DNA from: Methanoregula formicica SMSP
GTDB taxonomy: Archaea > Halobacteriota > Methanomicrobia > Methanomicrobiales > Methanospirillaceae
NCBI RefSeq assembly: GCF_000327485.1
Contig: NC_019943.1
Span: 558,001 to 622,000, forward strand
Reading direction: 5' to 3'
Length of the DNA: 64,000 nucleotides
Positions 46,188 through 54,360 of this stretch are shown in pieces. Numbering within the stretch: position 1 is the stretch's first letter; each line of letters opens with the position of its first letter. Below the pieces are notes generated by a model that worked only from the letters and a program-made list of their open reading frames with translations, did no database searches and was not told the DNA's origin. The translations under genes were made by a program, and so were the position numbers.

Positions 46188-47435
46188 ATGACAACGCATT
46201 TTTTCCTCCTTTCCGGCAGCCTGTCCGTTGAACGGCTCTCGTGGATCGAGGAGTGTCTCAAGTTCTTCTTTGTCCAGCTCTACCCGGAGTCGCTGATGCA
46301 CCGGGCCCCGGCCGAGAGCCCGGTTGTCACCTTCCTCCTGACCGGGGACGCATTATACAGCCTTGAGGATGCCGAGACCGTGCAGATCTGGTCGGTTATC
46401 CTCTCGCTGACCGCGGTCAGGATCATCTGCGACCGGCAGGAGCTGGACCTCCGCGGGATCCCGGTCGGCCGCCTGAAGATGAAATATCCCGACCAGGTGA
46501 TCGACACCAACAGCCTTGCCGTGGACAACCACCCCTCCTTCTGGAAGGACGTACTCGGGCTCGTGCGGCAGAACCGGCCGCCGCTTCCCGATGGCATCGG
46601 CTGGTTCCAGAGCGAGTCGCCCTACATGCACCTCTCCGCCGTGTATGGCCTGAGGTGCCTGAATGCCGGCATCGAGGCCCGTCTCTCCCCGGAACTCTAC
46701 GCGTACCTCGATGGCGTCCACATGGGCCACACAGCCCAGAGCCCGGCCGATTCAGAGAATGTCGGGCGCGGTCTCGAAGAGATCCATGAGCGTGCGGCAA
46801 AACAGAATTTATCAAGCCTCTTCCTTGCCTGCAACCGGTATGCAACGGCCCGGGGGTACAGTACCTGGGACGACGGCAAGGGATCGGTTGTCTCGACCTG
46901 CGCCATCAAGCCGTTCCATATCCGCGACCTCAATGCGATCATTGACCGGTTCGAGCGTCCGCACATCATCCTCTCCGCAAATGCCGGCTCGGTCAATTTC
47001 CCGAAAAAAGGGATGGCGGTCTCCTTTGACCGTGCCGAGAAGAGCAGTACCGCCCCCCCGGTGACAATCCTCATCACGACGTCTCCGTACAGCACCGGGA
47101 TGGCGTTTGGGGCAGTCTCCTTAGCTGTTGCCTGTGCCCACCAGGGCGTGCTGACCCGCGTTGTCTTCCTTGAAGACGGTGTGTACTCGGTTGCCGGGAC
47201 GCACCGGACACCCGCGGAAACCCCTCTGTTCACGATCCAGGACATTATCAACGCCGTGGCGGGGAGCGAGAACCTTCATTTCTTTGTCCTCGTGCAGTCA
47301 TTGCAGAAGCGCGGGCTTGTGAAGAACAAGGACTTAAACGCCGTCCTTGATATCGGTTTCCCGGGGCTTGGCAAGATCCTCTTCTATCCGCCGGGAAATG
47401 TGCATGCCGAGCACCAGCGGGTGCTGCTGTTCTGA
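46188..47435 (+). CDS. large DsrE-like protein with three tandem modules
   Basis: The 415-residue product repeats a DsrE/F-like module three times: residues about 1-105 (TFLLTGDALYSLED, VRIICDRQELDLRGI), about 140-250 (SESPYMHLSAVYGLRCLNAGIEARL with LEEIHERAAKQNLSSLFLAC, RGYSTW) and about 285-415 (ITTSPYSTGMAFGAVSLAVACAHQG with LEDGVY, FFVLVQSLQKRGL). In each case a module runs from a T-S-P-Y-type strand through helices to an L-F-V-x-x-Q-x-x-x-x-R-G strand. DsrE-type proteins carry persulfide sulfur. Cys residues in module 1 (IICD) and 2 (ACNRY) fit that. The upstream TusA-like gene supports a sulfur relay. Confidence 0.72.
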   Translation: MTTHFFLLSGSLSVERLSWIEECLKFFFVQLYPESLMHRAPAESPVVTFLLTGDALYSLEDAETVQIWSVILSLTAVRIICDRQELDLRGIPVGRLKMKYPDQVIDTNSLAVDNHPSFWKDVLGLVRQNRPPLPDGIGWFQSESPYMHLSAVYGLRCLNAGIEARLSPELYAYLDGVHMGHTAQSPADSENVGRGLEEIHERAAKQNLSSLFLACNRYATARGYSTWDDGKGSVVSTCAIKPFHIRDLNAIIDRFERPHIILSANAGSVNFPKKGMAVSFDRAEKSSTAPPVTILITTSPYSTGMAFGAVSLAVACAHQGVLTRVVFLEDGVYSVAGTHRTPAETPLFTIQDIINAVAGSENLHFFVLVQSLQKRGLVKNKDLNAVLDIGFPGLGKILFYPPGNVHAEHQRVLLF

Positions 47436-47445
47436 TACCCGGTAC

Positions 47446-47453
47446 GTTTTTTT
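47446..47453 (+). terminator. T-tract terminator after the DsrE-like gene
   Basis: Seven T in a row at 47447-47453 about 11 bases after the stop codon, overlapping the end of the truncated modC copy that lies on the other strand. Confidence 0.45.
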
Positions 47454-47590
47454 CATTCCGTGCTGTTCAATGGAATCACGTGTACAGCCGTTGCCTTGAA
47501 GGTTGCATACGCCAGCCCCCCTTGTTCCAGGTCCAGTTCGCGGCAGCTCTCATGGGTGAGTAGTGCTGTGAGCGGGATCCCCGCATTCAG
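47453..47590 (-). pseudogene. truncated second copy of the modC 3' end (TOBE domain)
   Basis: Minus-strand translation gives 45 codons plus a stop, starting LNAGIPLTALLTHESCRELD and continuing LEQGGLAYATFKATAVHVI, then PLNSTE. Against the end of ModC (LDAGFPLTALLTRESCRDLD... GVFATFKATAVHVIS), 30 of 42 aligned residues are the same. It has no start codon and no ABC domain before it; similarity stops at about 47590 and a non-coding repeat starts 40 bases further. The complete modC is 1 kb away on the same strand, so the 3' end exists twice with the VOC gene and a repeat between. Confidence 0.85.
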
Positions 47591-47632
47591 GATGCCCCCA
47601 TTTTTCCAGGTATATCCGAGTGTCCCCCTTGG

Positions 47633-48015
47633 TAAAATTATCTCCGTTTTGCGGGCACATTTTTCGGATCGGAGCCCATTTTGAAAAACGGGTTTTTGGA
47701 TACTCGCATTTTTTGGCGAATTAAAGGGTGATGTTTTGGAACGGGGGCTTTTTTAAGGCTATTTTGTGTATATGGGGGCCGTTTCAGGCTCCAAAAGTTG
47801 CCTAATTGGTGCCTTTTGGATGAGCGACTACTGTCGGAACGGCAGTAGGAGCTAGAGAATGTTGAAACTCATCAGATTTGAGACACGAGAAAAAAGAAGT
47901 TTTTCGAGGGAGCACCGGAAGATACTCTTCGGCGCCTTGGAGGAATCTTTTCATGGAAGAGTGGAGCCGGAGGAACCGGGAGGGGTCGGATTTGTGGCCG
48001 GGATCACAGCACTTG
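47633..48015. repeat. dispersed non-coding repeat, copy 1
   Basis: This 380-base intergenic segment shares several blocks with 52434-52707: AAAATTATCTC, TTTTTCGGATC-GAGCCCATTTT, ACGGGTTT, TTTTTGGCGAATTA (with about 80% identity over the first 95 bases), then CCAAAA...TAATTG, and at the end GAGGAAT...GGGGTCGGAT and GCCGGGATCACAGCAC. Compared with copy 2 it holds an extra stretch of about 110 bases (47825-47935), which contains a CTACTG...CAGTAG palindrome and the hairpin at 47889. No convincing reading frame. It lies downstream of the VOC gene. Nothing else is seen in the gap between 47436 and 48074. Confidence 0.7.
47889..47905. repeat. hairpin of the GAGAA/TTCTC type within repeat copy 1
   Basis: GAAAAA and TTTTTC around AGAAG, framed by CGA on both sides as in the other hairpins. 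The preceding ACACGAG is also found before the hairpin at 38808 (GCACGAG). Probably another, AT-rich member of the family. Confidence 0.5.
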
Positions 48016-48074
48016 GATCCGTGACGAGATCCTTGCTGTGATACGGGAACGCGGCGCTTTGTATGCCCGGGCTC

Positions 48075-48551
48075 TCACGCCACCAGAATCTGGTGCATGA
48101 TCTCCGCTGGCATTGTTGTCTTCTTTGCGATCTCTTCTTCTGTCATCCCCTCGCGATGCATCCGAAGGATGACAGCCGGCATCGGTTCCCCGAATTCGAC
48201 AATGAACCGGTCTGGATCATAGACCCGGAACACTCTCTGGCCCCATGGTTGCTCGCGGAGTTCGTGGACGACTTCGACCCCCTGCGAACAAACGGTTTCC
48301 CAGGCATCTTCGATGGACCCGGTCTCGAAATAGATCTCGATATCGTTTCCCTTGACCGGCGGGGTCTGTTTTCCATGGATCACGTTCAGGGCAAAATCCT
48401 TCTGCCAGAGTGCAAGGCCGTTCCTGAACCCCACGTTAACCCCGAGGTCCATCTCGATCTCAAGGCCAAGGAGATTTTGGTAAAACCGTTTCGATCGTTC
48501 AATGTTGCTGACAAAGAGGACAAACGCCGTAAGCCTGCAATCAGGTATCAT
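48075..48551 (-). CDS. VOC-family (glyoxalase-fold) protein with C-terminal HTH-like tail
   Basis: The 158-residue product starts with the two-module VOC pattern (AFVLFVSNIERSKRFYQNLLGLEIEMDLG; FRVYDPDRFIVEFGEPM), in which the metal-ligand His/Glu set is only partly seen (Glu in VEFGE). After about residue 120 there is an added helix-turn-helix-like tail (AVILRMHREGMTEEEIAKKT, then MPAEIMHQILVA). It lies 75 bases after modC on the same strand and between modC and the truncated modC 3' copy, so it may have arrived with the repeat. Function unknown. Confidence 0.75.
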   Translation of the reverse strand: MIPDCRLTAFVLFVSNIERSKRFYQNLLGLEIEMDLGVNVGFRNGLALWQKDFALNVIHGKQTPPVKGNDIEIYFETGSIEDAWETVCSQGVEVVHELREQPWGQRVFRVYDPDRFIVEFGEPMPAVILRMHREGMTEEEIAKKTTMPAEIMHQILVA

Positions 48552-48626
48552 GGTTGTCGGTATCGTTCCACAAGGAACAAGATAAAAGCGCGGCAGGGAA
48601 GGGTGAAAGTATTGCCCAGCGTTTTC

Positions 48627-49700
48627 TCACTCCGAGCGTTCATCCCCATTCATGGAAATCACGTGGACGGCCGTTGCCTTGAACGTTGCAAATACCCCGC
48701 TCCCCTCTTTCAGGTCAAGGTCACGACAGCTCTCGCGGGTGAGGAGTGCCGTGAGCGGGAATCCCGCATCCAGGCTCACCCGCACTGTGCTTCCCGAAGA
48801 AACGATCCCGGTAACGATCCCCCGCAGGCAGTTTCGGGCACTGGACTCGAACGGCGCTTTTGAGAGGATCACGTCCTCGGCATGCAGGGTGGTGACCACG
48901 TCTCCCGTGACGGGTGAGGCCGCAGTAAAGGCCGGGCCGCGTGTGGGTGTGATGCGGACAATATTCCTCTCACGTACCGATCTCCCCCGTATGATGTTGC
49001 TGATCCCCAGGAACTCGGCAACGAAAGTGTCTTCCGGGTGGAGAAAAACTTCCGATGTCTCTCCCACCTGCACAATCCGACCCTCCCGCATGATGGCGAT
49101 CCGGTCGGCAAGGGCAAAGACATCGTCGAAATGGTGGGTGATCTGGACGATGGTTGTCCCGGTCACGCTCCGGATCCGGGAGAGTTCGCGGCGCATCCGC
49201 TCCCGGCTCCGGCTGTCGAGTGCGCTCATCGGCTCATCGAGAAGCAGGACTTCCGGCCGGAGCACGAGGGCCCGGGCCAGGGCCACTCTCTGCTGTTCCC
49301 CACCGGAGAGCGTGCCGGGGTAGCGTTTTTTCAGATGCCCGATCTCCATCAGGTCGTACATTTCCAGCACGCGATCCCGCTGTTCATGTGCGGGGACTTT
49401 TTTCTGGTTCAGCCCGAACGCGATGTTCTCTTCAACCGTGAGATGGGGGAAGAGCATGTAGTCCTGGTATACCATGCCGATGTTCCGTTCGCGGGGTTCG
49501 CGTTCCGTAATGTCAACCGTATCGAGAAGGATCCTTCCATCCTTGGGAATATGAATCCCGGCAATGGTCTCCAGGAGAACCGTCTTTCCCGCGCCGGTCG
49601 GCCCGAGGATGATGAAGTACTCATCGGAACGGATCTCAAGCGAAACATCATGAACGGAAAATTCTCCCAGCGTTATGGAGAGGGATTCAATGCGCAGCAT
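48627..49700 (-). CDS. modC: molybdate/tungstate ABC transporter ATP-binding protein
   Basis: The 357-residue product has Walker A GPTGAGKTVLLE, ABC signature LSGGEQQRVALARAL, Walker B VLLLDEPMSALD and the H-loop ITHHFDD, then a C-terminal TOBE (MOP-like) domain from about residue 285 that ends FATFKATAVHVISMNGDE, which binds the oxyanion in related proteins. It gives energy for uptake of molybdate or tungstate. Fourth gene of the run modA-trmO-modB-modC; only 12 bases after modB. Its last 45 codons are repeated in truncated form at 47453. Confidence 0.93.
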   Translation of the reverse strand: MLRIESLSITLGEFSVHDVSLEIRSDEYFIILGPTGAGKTVLLETIAGIHIPKDGRILLDTVDITEREPRERNIGMVYQDYMLFPHLTVEENIAFGLNQKKVPAHEQRDRVLEMYDLMEIGHLKKRYPGTLSGGEQQRVALARALVLRPEVLLLDEPMSALDSRSRERMRRELSRIRSVTGTTIVQITHHFDDVFALADRIAIMREGRIVQVGETSEVFLHPEDTFVAEFLGISNIIRGRSVRERNIVRITPTRGPAFTAASPVTGDVVTTLHAEDVILSKAPFESSARNCLRGIVTGIVSSGSTVRVSLDAGFPLTALLTRESCRDLDLKEGSGVFATFKATAVHVISMNGDERSE

Positions 49701-49712
49701 GGTTGGACCTCC

Positions 49713-50486
49713 CTAAAAGACGTTCACGTTCTTGTCAAGGTATTCGACCGTGCAGAGCGCGACAAGCGAGATCAGGATCAGGATGGTCGCGGCCGCGATG
49801 GCAAGGTCCACGTCTCCTGTCGAGATATTGAGGTAGAGGGCGATAGGCAGTGTCTCGGTCCGCATGGTTGTTGCGCCGGCAAGCATCAGGACTGCGCCGA
49901 ACTCCCCCATTGCCTTGGACCACGTGATCACGGTGCCGGCAATGAGGCCGTGCCGTGCCATGGGAAGGGAGACCCGGAAGAATGCACCGGTCTCCGTGCA
50001 CCCGAGCGTCTTTGCCACGTGCTCGAACCGCGGGTTGATGGATGCAAACGTCGAGCGCATGATGCGGACCATGTAGGGGAGGTTGACGAAGACTTCCGCA
50101 ACGATGATCCCCAGCGGGGTGAAGATAACAGCAAAGCCGGCACTGTCGAGTGCCTTTCCCCACGGGGTTGTGCCGAAAAAGAGGAGGAGCGCGATGCCGG
50201 CAACCAGCGGGGGGAGTGTCAGGGGAAGTGTCAGGACAAGGCTTGCGATCCGCTTTCCCGGGAACGTATACCGGGCAAGCGCATAGGCAACCGGGACGGC
50301 TATAGCTATGCAGATGATGGTCGATGCCACGCTCGTTACAAGACTGAGCAGGATCGCAAACCGGATCTCGGGGCTTGCAAGGCTCGAAAGAAGCGTGGAG
50401 AGCGGAGAGTAGAAGAGGAGGCCAAGGAGCATCCCGCTGATAACAAGAAAGAGGATGAGGGTTAAGGCCAGCGATACTTTCCGCAT
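49713..50486 (-). CDS. modB: molybdate/tungstate ABC transporter permease
   Basis: The 257-residue product has about six hydrophobic segments with the ModB-type EAA motif ARTLGCTETGAFFRVSLPMARHGLIAG (here AKTLGCTETGAFFRVSLP) and GEFGAVLMLAG. Membrane part of the ModABC importer. Starts 21 bases after trmO; a normal bacterial-type permease length. Confidence 0.92.
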   Translation of the reverse strand: MRKVSLALTLILFLVISGMLLGLLFYSPLSTLLSSLASPEIRFAILLSLVTSVASTIICIAIAVPVAYALARYTFPGKRIASLVLTLPLTLPPLVAGIALLLFFGTTPWGKALDSAGFAVIFTPLGIIVAEVFVNLPYMVRIMRSTFASINPRFEHVAKTLGCTETGAFFRVSLPMARHGLIAGTVITWSKAMGEFGAVLMLAGATTMRTETLPIALYLNISTGDVDLAIAAATILILISLVALCTVEYLDKNVNVF

Positions 50487-50507
50487 CCGCGACTCCTGCC
50501 CGCCCGG

Positions 50508-50987
50508 TTACTGCTGCCGGATACCCGATCCCGCTTCCCGGAGCCTCCCGACATGTGTCGTGGTGACCCACCCGGGGGCGGCATCAGGGATGGAATCGAA
50601 CGCCGGGATATAGGGCTTGATATCGAGGACCGGTGTCCCGTCAAGAAGGTCGATCCCTTTCACCGAGAGAACCCCATCAGTAATCCCTGTCAGGGCAACG
50701 TACGAGATCCCGATCGGGTTGGGCCGGTTGAAGTGGCGGGTGGCGAAGATGCCGTGGTTTGCCTCCCCGTCCAGGAGCGGCTTCTCCGCAAGTGCCCGCT
50801 TCTCTGCTTGGTTGAAATGGGAGAGGATGATGAGGTGCGAGAATCCTTCGATGTCGCGGAGCCCCTCACGGTATTCGAAAAAGACCTCGATTGTCCCTGT
50901 GGCCTGCGAGAACGAGCTCTGGAACGGGGGTGCACCGCGTGTCGTGAGCTCTGAATGCGCAATCCCTATCGGGCGGAAGTCCATCAT
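50508..50987 (-). CDS. trmO: TrmO/TsaA-type tRNA methyltransferase
   Basis: The 159-residue product has FRPIGIAHSELTTRGAPPFQ, LRDIEGFSHLIILSHFNQAE, GIFATRHFNRPNPIGISYVALTG and LDGTPVLDIKPYIPAFD, the conserved set of the TrmO (VirR/YaeB) family, which methylates N6 of t6A37 in tRNA with SAM. Its place between modA and modB is surprising but consistent with an operon (20 and 19 bases of spacing). Such genes are common next to metal or molybdate genes in archaea, where their role could be different. Start M at 50987 or 50984. Confidence 0.85.
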   Translation of the reverse strand: MMDFRPIGIAHSELTTRGAPPFQSSFSQATGTIEVFFEYREGLRDIEGFSHLIILSHFNQAEKRALAEKPLLDGEANHGIFATRHFNRPNPIGISYVALTGITDGVLSVKGIDLLDGTPVLDIKPYIPAFDSIPDAAPGWVTTTHVGRLREAGSGIRQQ

Positions 50988-51006
50988 GGTCTCTTTACGG
51001 TCTCCC

Positions 51007-51849
51007 TTACGGCTGGACGTTCGCATAGACCGGGTCCGGGTAGATCGGGAACCCGTGCTTTGCAAAGATCGCCTTGCCCTCGTCCGATGCCACGAACGCC
51101 ACGAACTTTGCTGCGGCATCGGAATTCTGCGTGAACGTGGTCATACCGATGGGAGTGATCAGGACCTCGTTTACCGTAAGCGGGATCTCGATCATGTCCA
51201 TCTTGTCGGTTTTGACATTGTCAAGCGTCAGGAGGGCGGCGTCGGCCTGCCCGGCATTCATGATCGTGACCAGTTCGTTGATGGTCGGTGTGCGGGTCAC
51301 CACGTTCTTCTCAACGTCAGCGGTAATGTTCAGCTTCTTGAACATCTTCGCCCCAGCCTTGCCGATGGCCGTGGCATCGACATCACCGAGTGCGATCTTC
51401 ATGCCAGGCTGTGCAAAATCCTTCAGCGTGGCGATGTTCTTCGGATTGCCCTTCTGCACCACAATCACCGGCACGTGGTAGGCAACAAGCTGGTAGGAAT
51501 CGACGAGGCCCTGCGCTTTTGCGGTCTTCCACTCGTTCGTCGAGCCGGGGATGAAGACATCACCCTTGTGGGTCAGGTTCATCTGCGTGATGAGGACTCC
51601 GCTTCCGCCATAACTGTACTGGACGCCGATGCCGTACTTTTGCGTGAATGCCTTACCAGCATCTTCCATCGGGGCCTTGAGCCCAGCGCCGGAGAAGACG
51701 AGGATGCTCTCCGTGGGAACTGCGGTTGTTGCCGCTGCGGTGCTCTTTGCACCCTGTGACGAGGAGGTGCAGCCGGCACATGCCGCTGCGATGAACAGGA
51801 TGACGAGGGCGATACTGATGATGAGTGTTGAGTTCAGTTTCTGGGTCAT
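51007..51849 (-). CDS. modA: molybdate/tungstate-binding lipoprotein
   Basis: The 280-residue product starts MTQKLNSTLIISIALVILF, has a lipobox (ACAGC, Cys about residue 27), then the ModA fold: ILVFSGAGLKAPMEDAGKAF, VQYSYGGSGVLITQM, FIPGSTNEWKTAKAQGLV, KIALGDVDATAIGKAGAKMF and FVAFVASDEGKAIFAKHGFPIY. It captures molybdate or tungstate outside the cell. First gene of the operon. A 22-base AT-rich region upstream (51885-51905, TAATAATTATTTATTA-like) is the likely promoter. Confidence 0.92.
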   Translation of the reverse strand: MTQKLNSTLIISIALVILFIAAACAGCTSSSQGAKSTAAATTAVPTESILVFSGAGLKAPMEDAGKAFTQKYGIGVQYSYGGSGVLITQMNLTHKGDVFIPGSTNEWKTAKAQGLVDSYQLVAYHVPVIVVQKGNPKNIATLKDFAQPGMKIALGDVDATAIGKAGAKMFKKLNITADVEKNVVTRTPTINELVTIMNAGQADAALLTLDNVKTDKMDMIEIPLTVNEVLITPIGMTTFTQNSDAAAKFVAFVASDEGKAIFAKHGFPIYPDPVYANVQP

Positions 51850-52014
51850 GGAAATCATTCCGAGGATCAGGGATCGACCGGACACTAATAAATAATTATT
51901 GATTTACTTTTTTTATTTGTTAACCAGAAAAGCCGGATATTCCGGTTGAACCATTGCAGCGTACAGCAGGAACTGCCAGGTGTGTTCGCTGCGTGGGAAA
52001 GAAGGAAAAAAAGA
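51850..52014 (-). promoter_or_regulatory. promoter region of the mod operon
   Basis: Minus strand: AGTAAATCAATAATTATTTA and TTAGTG follow each other, giving a TATA-like box about 40 bases before the modA ATG (52 bases when counted from the AT-rich centre). The inverted repeat AATAATTATT within it could hold a regulator site, such as for a ModE/TupR-like or other sensor; this is speculative. The remainder of the gap to the fdhB fragment has no gene. Confidence 0.5.
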
Positions 52015-52350
52015 TTAATGTTTGCCCGGCATCGGGTTGAACACATTCTCGTAGATCATGTCGCTGCCGGTGTTGTGCAGGCGGGCGCGCTCCTCTCTCT
52101 CCTCAGCATAGGCAAGGATCGGGAGTTCCATGTCCCGGCCGGGGACGTGGCCGAACATCTTTTCGAGCTCGACCTGCTGGGAGTGCATGAAGAGGGCGTT
52201 CGGGATCTCCGACGGGCAGAGTTCCTGGCACTGGCCGCAGTTCACGCAGCTCGATGCAATGTGGGCGAAGCAGATGAGGTGGAACATGAAGTTCGGGGGG
52301 ACCTCACCGGAGGGGAGGGCTGGAGGAATGATCCATGATACTTCTGGCTT
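52015..52350 (-). pseudogene. 3' fragment of fdhB (formate dehydrogenase beta subunit)
   Basis: The minus-strand frame reads KPEVSWIIPPALPSGEVPPN, then FMFHLICFAHIASSCVNCGQ, and CQELCPSEIPNALFMHSQQ, ending in a normal stop at 52015. The CVNCGQC...C cluster motif and the following LEKMFGHVPGRDMELP are those of the C-terminal Fe-S end of F420-reducing formate dehydrogenase beta (FdhB). A full FdhB has about 400 residues; here only about 111 are left, preceded by TGA and a hairpin at 52381. It is a remnant, unless the missing part sits elsewhere. Confidence 0.8.
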
Positions 52351-52380
52351 TCAGGGAACGTTTGAATGTCTCTCTCCTTC

Positions 52381-52397
52381 GAAGAACTGCGTTCTTC
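52381..52397. repeat. hairpin of the GAAGAA/TTCTTC family
   Basis: GAAGAAC and GTTCTTC around TGC, followed by a second inverted repeat (TTACTC and GGAGTAA). It lies between the truncated fdhB end and repeat copy 2. It has the same outer pairs as the hairpins at 32365, 33533 and 38808. Confidence 0.65.
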
Positions 52398-52433
52398 TCA
52401 TGCTCTTACTCTCCGTTGAGGAGTAATTACACC

Positions 52434-52707
52434 ATAAAATTATCTCTTTGATTTGGGCTTATTTTTCGGATCAGAGCCCATTTTAGGAAACGGGTTTCCG
52501 GATAGTCGCGGTTTTTGGCGAATTACAGCGATCGATTTCAAAAATATTGATGTATAGGGGAAATTTCGAGGATCTGGGAATAATACGGGCGCCAAAATCG
52601 GATTAATTGTTGCCCTTCTGATCGATCGCGGGGGAGGAATTCAGGGAAGTGTGGGGCCGGAAGACCCGGTGGGGGGTCGGATCCGGGGCCGGGATCACAG
52701 CACCAGG
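52434..52707. repeat. dispersed non-coding repeat, copy 2
   Basis: Shares its blocks with 47633-48015: AAAATTATCTC, TTTTTCGGATC-GAGCCCATTTT, TTTTTGGCGAATTA, then CCAAAA...TTAATTG, GAGGAATT...GGGGTCGGAT and GCCGGGATCACAGCAC. It lacks the additional 110 bases of copy 1. Its right end contains the stop codon of the FmdE-like gene (TCA at 52695 on the plus strand). No reading frame of note. Both copies are on the 3' side of a minus-strand gene and next to the 3' fragment of another gene. Confidence 0.7.
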
Positions 52708-53252
52708 TAATATGCCCCGTCCGCACAGGCTTTGCATATGGCCTTGCCATCCCGCATAATCTCGCGGCCGTCCATGATCCGCTCGCCGCATTGCGTGCAG
52801 AGCGTCTTGTGTTTCGGCATCCCTGGAATATCGTTCTCGGGAATTTCAACGGAGACCCGCTGAATCTTTAGGATCTCTTCATCAGGGGCGGTCGCAAGGG
52901 CCTGCAGCATCTCCTTTGGGTCCATCTGGTCGTGCTTTGCCCGGTTCTTCTCGTCCACGGCAACCCGCACGGCCCGGCCGGACTTCAGGTCGACAAACGT
53001 TGCGGCAAACCTGCCGTAGTCGCGGAACTTGAGGCTGCGGTGGCCCAGCGAACAACCGGTGATGGCCTGCACGGCATCAGCGCCGCACCGGTCGATCTCC
53101 ATGTATACGATCAGATCGCGGTGGTGTTCGAGAGGGTTCAGCCCGAGTTCGCGGAGCCCGGCGATTGTCAGCCGGGTGCCCAGCACGATCCCGGCGCAGA
53201 CATGACCGTGGAATTCTCTCGCTTTTGCAAACAAACTATCATAATCGCTCAT
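52695..53252 (-). CDS. FmdE-type metal-binding protein
   Basis: The 185-residue product has the FmdE N-terminal domain with FHGHVCAGIVLGTRLTIAGLREL (conserved His and Cys likely bind metal), DRCGADAVQAITGCSLGHRSL, and a C-terminal zinc ribbon CTQCGERI...CKACADG. FmdE was first seen with formylmethanofuran dehydrogenase, but stand-alone forms often lie near metal importers. Its start overlaps the stop of the methyltransferase gene (ATGA at 53249-53252), which faces the metal-importer operon. I infer that it handles the imported metal or chelate. Confidence 0.85.
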   Translation of the reverse strand: MSDYDSLFAKAREFHGHVCAGIVLGTRLTIAGLRELGLNPLEHHRDLIVYMEIDRCGADAVQAITGCSLGHRSLKFRDYGRFAATFVDLKSGRAVRVAVDEKNRAKHDQMDPKEMLQALATAPDEEILKIQRVSVEIPENDIPGMPKHKTLCTQCGERIMDGREIMRDGKAICKACADGAYYLVL

Positions 53253-54178
53253 GATCTCCTCCTCTTTCCTGAGGTCTTGTTATCTTTGTTGTTCCCGCCG
53301 GTATTCCGTGCGTCAGCGACATTCCACCAGAGATGGGCGCCAAGGGTCTTTTCCCCCAGCACGAATCCCTGGTCCGTCTTCCGCAGCATGGCGTGGAGAT
53401 AATTCCTCACAATTTCCTCATGCTCCGGAGCCGCGCAGTTCAGGCGCCGGATGTATTCTCCCGTAGCCTCCTCGAACGTGGCAAAGGAGGATGCCGGTGA
53501 CTTGGTCTCGACAGTAAGGTTCGCGTAGATCCCCATCTCGAAAAGGACCATAAAGAGCCAGTCAGCCGTGGGCTCGCCCGGGAACTCCCCGCCATGGATC
53601 AGCGGCCAGAGGTCCCGGTTCACGTTCGCCCAGGCTGGCGGGGTAAGGAACCAGAAGAGGTGTACGGTCCCGTGGCAGCAGCGCTGCATCTTTGCGATTG
53701 CCTCTGCAATGTCCATCATCGTGAGGGAGTAGGACGCGATCACGATATCGTAGGGCTCGCCGAGTTCTTCCATGCCCACATCCTCCCACCGTTTCGGGAT
53801 AACCGATATGCCGGAGATGTTCTCTTGGACAATTCGTTCAGCCAGTGCCTCCCGCATCACATCCGAAGGTTCGACAACCGTCACCGTACACCCGCGGGCC
53901 GCCAGCGGTATGGCAAACGTGCCGGGTCCGGCGCCGATGTCCAGCACGCGCGAGCCATCGGGTATCGCCATGGCCTCCAGCCGTTCCCCGGTCTGGTGCT
54001 GGTTCTTCTCCCGGCCCTTCATGTACACGGTTTTGACATTCTTCCTGTTGTTCCAGAACTGCTTGTTGTTGCCATAGTTCGGCACGGCGCAGTGCGCCAG
54101 CTTGACCCGGCGCCACCGTTCACTCCAAGTTGGTAAAGGGATACTCCCGGTATATGGGGGGCTGGTATACTCGTTCAT
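53249..54178 (-). CDS. SAM-dependent methyltransferase (metal cluster, leftward operon)
   Basis: The 309-residue product begins MNEYTSPPYTGSIPLPTWSE and carries a class I SAM motif VLDIGAGPGTFAIPLAARG, VVEPSDVMREALAER and a partner motif DIVIASYSL. Before the methyltransferase core is a segment with WRRVKLAHCAVPNYGNNKQFWNNRKNVKTVYM. A GGGGAGA stands seven bases before the ATG at 54178, which I take as the start; a longer frame begins at 54226 in the promoter region. Substrate unknown; with FmdE-type, DUF364 and importer genes nearby, a small metal-binding molecule is a good guess. Confidence 0.8.
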   Translation of the reverse strand: MNEYTSPPYTGSIPLPTWSERWRRVKLAHCAVPNYGNNKQFWNNRKNVKTVYMKGREKNQHQTGERLEAMAIPDGSRVLDIGAGPGTFAIPLAARGCTVTVVEPSDVMREALAERIVQENISGISVIPKRWEDVGMEELGEPYDIVIASYSLTMMDIAEAIAKMQRCCHGTVHLFWFLTPPAWANVNRDLWPLIHGGEFPGEPTADWLFMVLFEMGIYANLTVETKSPASSFATFEEATGEYIRRLNCAAPEHEEIVRNYLHAMLRKTDQGFVLGEKTLGAHLWWNVADARNTGGNNKDNKTSGKRRRS

Positions 54179-54360
54179 TGATTCTCTCCCCGTTTGTTGT
54201 TCACTTATACTAATTGATTTTTTCATTTATTAATGACATTAAGCGAACATGGTGCAGGAGATGAAAACTCTCTTGTAAAATGATATTAGTTTACTTCTCA
54301 AAAAATTAACCAATTTCCCAAAACTTAAATGGTCCAACAGACAACCGGATCAGGATCACT
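54179..54360. promoter_or_regulatory. divergent promoter region of the metal cluster
   Basis: A 182-base AT-rich gap separates the leftward methyltransferase-fmdE pair from the rightward genes. Near-matching inverted elements TATACTAAT (about 54208) and ATTAGTTTA (about 54285) flank the centre, and T/A-rich boxes on both sides could be TATA boxes. A common regulator, for instance a metal sensor, might bind here and control both operons. The exact operator cannot be assigned by reading. Confidence 0.45.

Follow-up and report, generated by a model that had tools for sequence, protein, structure and literature searches.

The stretch of DNA analysed here (the window) comprises 64,000 nt of the genome of Methanoregula formicica SMSP, which has a size of 2,820,858 bp (PMC4155587) and is represented here by a single contig, with the window at C1:558001-622000. 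On the minus strand, the locus under study reads fmdE, repeat copy 2, a 3' stub of the formate dehydrogenase gene fdhB, modA, a TrmO-like gene, modB, modC, a glyoxalase-family gene, repeat copy 1 and a modC-like fragment (Table 1). The TrmO-like stretch between modB and modA is kept in two same-genus relatives, G052 and G047. In G052, C20:130-135 kb carries more genes of the fmdE-like and methyltransferase types, relatives of the pair at window 52695-54226.

Table 1. Coordinates (window positions) of genes, gene remnants and repeats at the locus.
Feature	Position	Strand	Remarks
modC-like 3' fragment, half TOBE domain	47466..47598	-	77% to 48649-48781; Pfam TOBE 9.8e-7
Repeat copy 1	47635..47852	+	nhmmer E 8.8e-51
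Glyoxalase-family gene separating modC from repeat copy 1	48075..48551	-	
modC, full length	48627..49700	-	TOBE domain present
modB permease	49713..50486	-	
TrmO-like gene within mod cluster	50508..50990	-	
modA, substrate-binding protein	51007..51885	-	95.1% nt identity to modA behind intact G052 fdhB
fdhB 3' remnant	52015..52316	-	3' end of a third fdhB (100 codons with the stop)
Deletion junction, short imperfect homology	52304..52320 (approximate)		Window reads between fdhB side and ORF203 side
ORF203 3' tail	52311..52360	+	Aligned to G052 ORF203 end: GRAGGMIHDTSGFQG vs GRAGGMIRDTPGFWG
Piece of second, short hairpin-type repeat family	52376..52410		Matches at 46.2, 271.8, 294.9 and 1942.7 kb
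Repeat copy 2	52438..52667	+	nhmmer E 2.3e-53; profile from 15 copies, copy 2 included
fmdE-like gene, intact	52695..53252	-	Pfam FmdE + zinc finger; adjoins repeat in G052 too

The original prediction described a C-terminal fdhB fragment of 111 codons. The assignment to the fdhB C-terminus is confirmed, but only 100 codons align to the G052 gene, and the open frame is composed of these 100 codons (stop included) and 11 codons of other DNA. About the last quarter of the gene is left, and this stub occurs once in the genome. The 5' part is indeed absent from the window, as had been stated; full-length fdhB genes lie at 642.3 kb and 665.6 kb, and remoter relatives at 638.1 and 1503.8 kb, all of them elsewhere in the genome. 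Full genes elsewhere in the genome, which had been proposed as a check, exist in duplicate, with a protein identity to the stub of 81% and 83%, respectively. The best match outside the own genome, among 39 genomes of the genus, is located in G052 (C20:150441-150743, 95% protein identity, in an open frame of 448 codons). In the nucleotide alignment the stub and this intact fdhB agree at 290 of 300 positions (96.7%). Seven of the differences are synonymous and three are non-synonymous; the stub's opening two codons, at the junction, account for two of these three. This pattern would fit selection acting on the gene until recently.

In G052, a repeat copy, ORF203 (on the minus strand), fdhA, fdhB and modA follow one another, with ORF203 divergent from fdhA and the repeat just past ORF203. 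The G052 fdhA encodes 649 aa with molybdopterin oxidoreductase domains, fdhB is a 441-aa ORF that ends at C20:150.7 kb on the same strand as modA, and modA itself (C20:150915-151751) matches the window modA at 96% on the protein level. The draft assembly of G052 has about 60 contigs, and no single one of them carries the whole locus, since the boundary of C12 and C20 falls within the mod cluster (window 50350-50461). Among 13 other genomes with a modA of at least 68% identity, the coordinates place fdhB beside modA only in G052, although draft assemblies may hide further cases. In G047, the shared gene cluster is retained, and next come a degenerate piece of ORF203 and modA, but no fdhAB at this place, so the arrangement is probably older than the window's genome, and fdhAB was probably lost in G047, too.

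Alternatively, repeat-mediated copying could have placed here a part of one of the two other own fdhB genes, as both resemble the stub at 81-83% protein identity. This resemblance is clearly exceeded by the 300-nt comparison with the same-site gene, and a full fdhAB stands at exactly this place in G052, so that the proposal is refuted in substance and we consider it extremely improbable.

The window tracks fdhB up to about 52316; beyond this it matches the terminal ~50 nt of ORF203, which is encoded on the opposite strand, and a spacer then leads on to the repeat. The two parent sequences of this junction in G052 are CTCGCCGGGGGTGA on the fdhB side and GTCGCGGTGGGGGA on the ORF203 side; at the seam both have in common a G-rich word with mismatches, which leaves the breakpoints uncertain by about 10 nt. 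The stub was said to lie directly beside repeat copy 2, which does not hold, as about 120 nt (52317-52437) intervene, and these start with the 3' tail of ORF203. The ORF203 product matches the Pfam family DUF6431 below the family cut-off and has relatives in 34 of the 39 genus genomes; as a DUF6431-like protein encoded divergently from fdhA in G052, it is a possible candidate regulator. Proteins of this type, likewise with weak DUF6431 matches, are encoded at 634.3, 638.5 and 661.9 kb of the own genome, and by their coordinates they are often close to formate dehydrogenase genes.

Both features expected of a deletion remnant are found here, namely a close relative that still has the intact orthologue in this position (fdhA-fdhB-modA) and a junction whose two sides come from the intact arrangement in their original order, from the fdhB interior to the ORF203 tail. 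As G052 keeps the intact row and the window fuses fdhB to the ORF203 tail, the 100-codon stub is very probably what a deletion left over, with the repeat already in place beyond ORF203 beforehand. The ancestor would have carried a repeat copy, ORF203, fdhA, fdhB and modA in the order seen in G052. In the SMSP lineage a deletion of about 3.5 kb would then have run from the fdhB interior to the last ORF203 codons, taking fdhA, three quarters of fdhB and nearly all of ORF203, with its ends sealed in the short imperfect homology. The deletion would merely have drawn the stub near the pre-existing repeat. The intact G052 row, the junction and the near identity of the stub are observed directly, and from these we infer the direction and order of events. 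The loss of fdhAB was probably tolerable, because two other fdhAB loci remain.

Copy 2 itself sits at a further difference between the two genomes. Its left flank matches G052 at C20:150.4 kb and its right flank at C20:115.1 kb, 7 nt from a repeat; the two G052 repeats concerned are 31 kb apart in the same orientation. A single recombination between two such direct repeats could have removed the 31 kb and, by a nearby second break, truncated fdhB. We regard this as highly improbable, since the breakpoint of the stub lies outside the repeat and the 31-kb segment, instead of being cleanly excised, is mostly absent or scattered in the own genome, with parts at 725, 867 and 896 kb, which means that more than one rearrangement separates both genomes. 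In its body, copy 2 most resembles the own-genome copies 738990 and 2028024 and neither of the two G052 repeats, so that its sequence cannot be used to trace a crossover. The joining of the copy 2 flanks would most simply be ascribed to recombination between dispersed repeat copies, and the stub to the separate deletion described above.

The repeat is about 230 nt long and occurs in 22 copies or partial copies in the own genome, of which the one at 1297.7 kb matches over only 36 nt; the two window copies are 81% identical over 94 nt. A search with one DNA query, which underestimates the distribution, found the repeat in five of 40 genomes, with the own genome counted and every one from the genus. 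The repeat is also present in G052, where one query gave 24 matches, a number similar to that in the own genome. Two copies contain an insert that resembles the second, hairpin-type repeat. Hairpins of that second family are of the kind AAGAACTACGTTCTTC, and similar pieces lie inside the copies 1744515 and 1764277. One repeat copy (2643457-2643683) is found just ahead of a CRISPR-like array with repeats such as ATTTCAATCCACACTCCCGCGAAGGGAGTGAC, and similar copies at 2674, 2678 and 2683 kb cluster with this one. At about 1882 kb, a tandem array whose single reading frame encodes repeats like TKSSRFERLSNLE adjoins a decayed repeat copy.

The nature of the element was approached from several sides. 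Terminal inverted repeats stayed within the range of 100 shuffles in 21 of the 22 copies, the exception, 1881765, being a poor copy, and without such termini a classification as MITE was rejected. A search of window 47000-53300 against Rfam, with E values up to 1, gave no match, and a known RNA family was dismissed on this basis. The support for a structured RNA in general is weak and contradictory: the fold gave an alignment z of -3.5 on the plus strand, but a single-sequence mean z of -0.3 over 21 copies, and in a three-helix model, chosen by eye on the same 40 sequences, 83.9% of the cells are paired, with a shuffled mean of 83.9, and the covariation score was equalled in 13 of 500 shuffles.

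The copies are intergenic, and within 300 nt of them 18 three-prime and 5 five-prime gene ends were counted with a home-made gene caller, compared to 46:43 for random placements, one per gap, in 50 repeat-free gaps (Fisher p 0.03, uncorrected). This bias is weakened by the share of convergent gaps, which does not differ (six of 22 copies, 11 of 50 random gaps, p 0.76). Two 3' gene fragments on the same strand beside two repeat copies had led to the proposal of a mobile element or site-specific integration element that captures or truncates the 3' ends of genes, which the preference for gene 3' ends would favour, too. A truncated gene alongside the repeat is seen for the window's two of the 22 copies, where the scan for decayed remnants covered nine of 185 six-frame pieces. 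In a separate scan, nine genes beside seven other copies all cover their Pfam profiles wholly or nearly so; the genes checked at other copies are thus intact. The fdhB breakpoint is about 120 nt away from copy 2, with the tail of another gene in between. Target-site duplications are not consistent either, as the longest words shared at the copies range from 0 to 9 nt with no common length, although the element ends are fuzzy, and the terminal inverted repeats are those described above. Seven of the 22 copies, moreover, keep both flanks around the same G052 repeat. That the repeat makes or marks 3' gene fragments is therefore not supported, and we consider an integration element of this kind highly improbable.

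The modC-like fragment, which covers positions 27-64 of 64 of the Pfam TOBE profile, was presented as a parallel to the fdhB stub. Order and strand indeed agree, but the fine anatomy differs, since this fragment ends within about 35 nt of copy 1 and the fdhB stub about 120 nt from copy 2. The same two neighbours are also found in G052, but with 166 nt between them compared to 629 in the window and without the fragment or the repeat, an absence that would favour an integration at this site; in G047 this place is occupied by other genes. The two window repeats might also have delimited a tract of foreign DNA, since identity to G052 is 93-95% in the mod cluster and about 80-84% left of copy 1; this idea was dropped because identity between both genomes varies from about 83 to 97% elsewhere.

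The flanks of all 22 copies, up to 4 kb, were compared with selected G052 stretches, so that an unmatched flank may lie elsewhere in that genome. Both flanks surround the same G052 repeat for 1212375, 1744515, 1802604, 1881765, 1941690, 2028024 and 2215839, with gaps of up to 3.3 kb in the matches of 1802604 and 1881765. For 610438 (copy 2) and 711578 the flanks are at two different G052 repeats; in the latter case one of these lies at a contig start, and the DNA past the other maps to 2.66 Mb in the own genome. Both flanks of copy 1 (605635) are together in G052 without a repeat. The outer flanks of 2678645 and 2683402, which enclose about 4.5 kb in the own genome, match G052 C55:10.2-10.5 kb, where 0.5-0.9 kb beside the repeat is unmatched. 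The other ten copies have one flank, none or a partial match in the stretches compared. In a tree and an identity table built from 43 copies, taken from the two genomes, positional pairs of 89-97% were seen for 1744515, 2215839, 2007074, 1705916, 1705639 and 1802604. Copy 2028024 has flanks of 91-96% identity to G052 but a body of 73% to its counterpart and 83.5% to copy 2, which would fit replacement of the body by another copy, i.e. gene conversion, with fast local divergence as the alternative.

Judged from these alignments, in which breaks were counted at repeat sites only, the view that repeats sit at several gene-order differences from G052 is supported in part. The wider claim that the repeat marks recombination or integration at gene ends consequently keeps its position near 3' ends and these gene-order differences on its side, and the seven copies with both flanks conserved against it. 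Tentatively, and with considerable doubt, we suggest that this family, seen here only in Methanoregula, might repeatedly serve for ectopic recombination and gene conversion and in this way reshape gene neighbourhoods, its copies being retained immediately downstream of gene 3' ends. If the family is truly recombining, it would help to explain the shuffled gene order between Methanoregula species. For a formate-using methanogen, the locus shows the loss of a third formate dehydrogenase set beside its metal transporter, and what appeared as a repeat plus a gene stub has become a concrete, testable deletion.

Neither the repeat family nor the fdhB deletion was found among the matches listed in literature searches on Methanoregula, MITEs and formate dehydrogenase loss. 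With REP/BIME repeats, which are intergenic sequences of a few tens of nt near gene 3' ends and possible recombination sites, the present repeat shares the intergenic position close to gene 3' ends, but it differs by its length of about 230 nt, the lack of a strong palindrome and the weak structural support. It resembles MITEs, the subject of a review (PMC10969869), in being short, non-coding, dispersed and intergenic, but it lacks terminal inverted repeats and a consistent target duplication. The stub itself is comparable to pseudogene remnants of deletions in redundant operons, with which it shares a near-identical intact orthologue, two other full-length fdhB genes and short homology at the junction, and it differs from these by its location in a metal-transport cluster and its end near a dispersed repeat.
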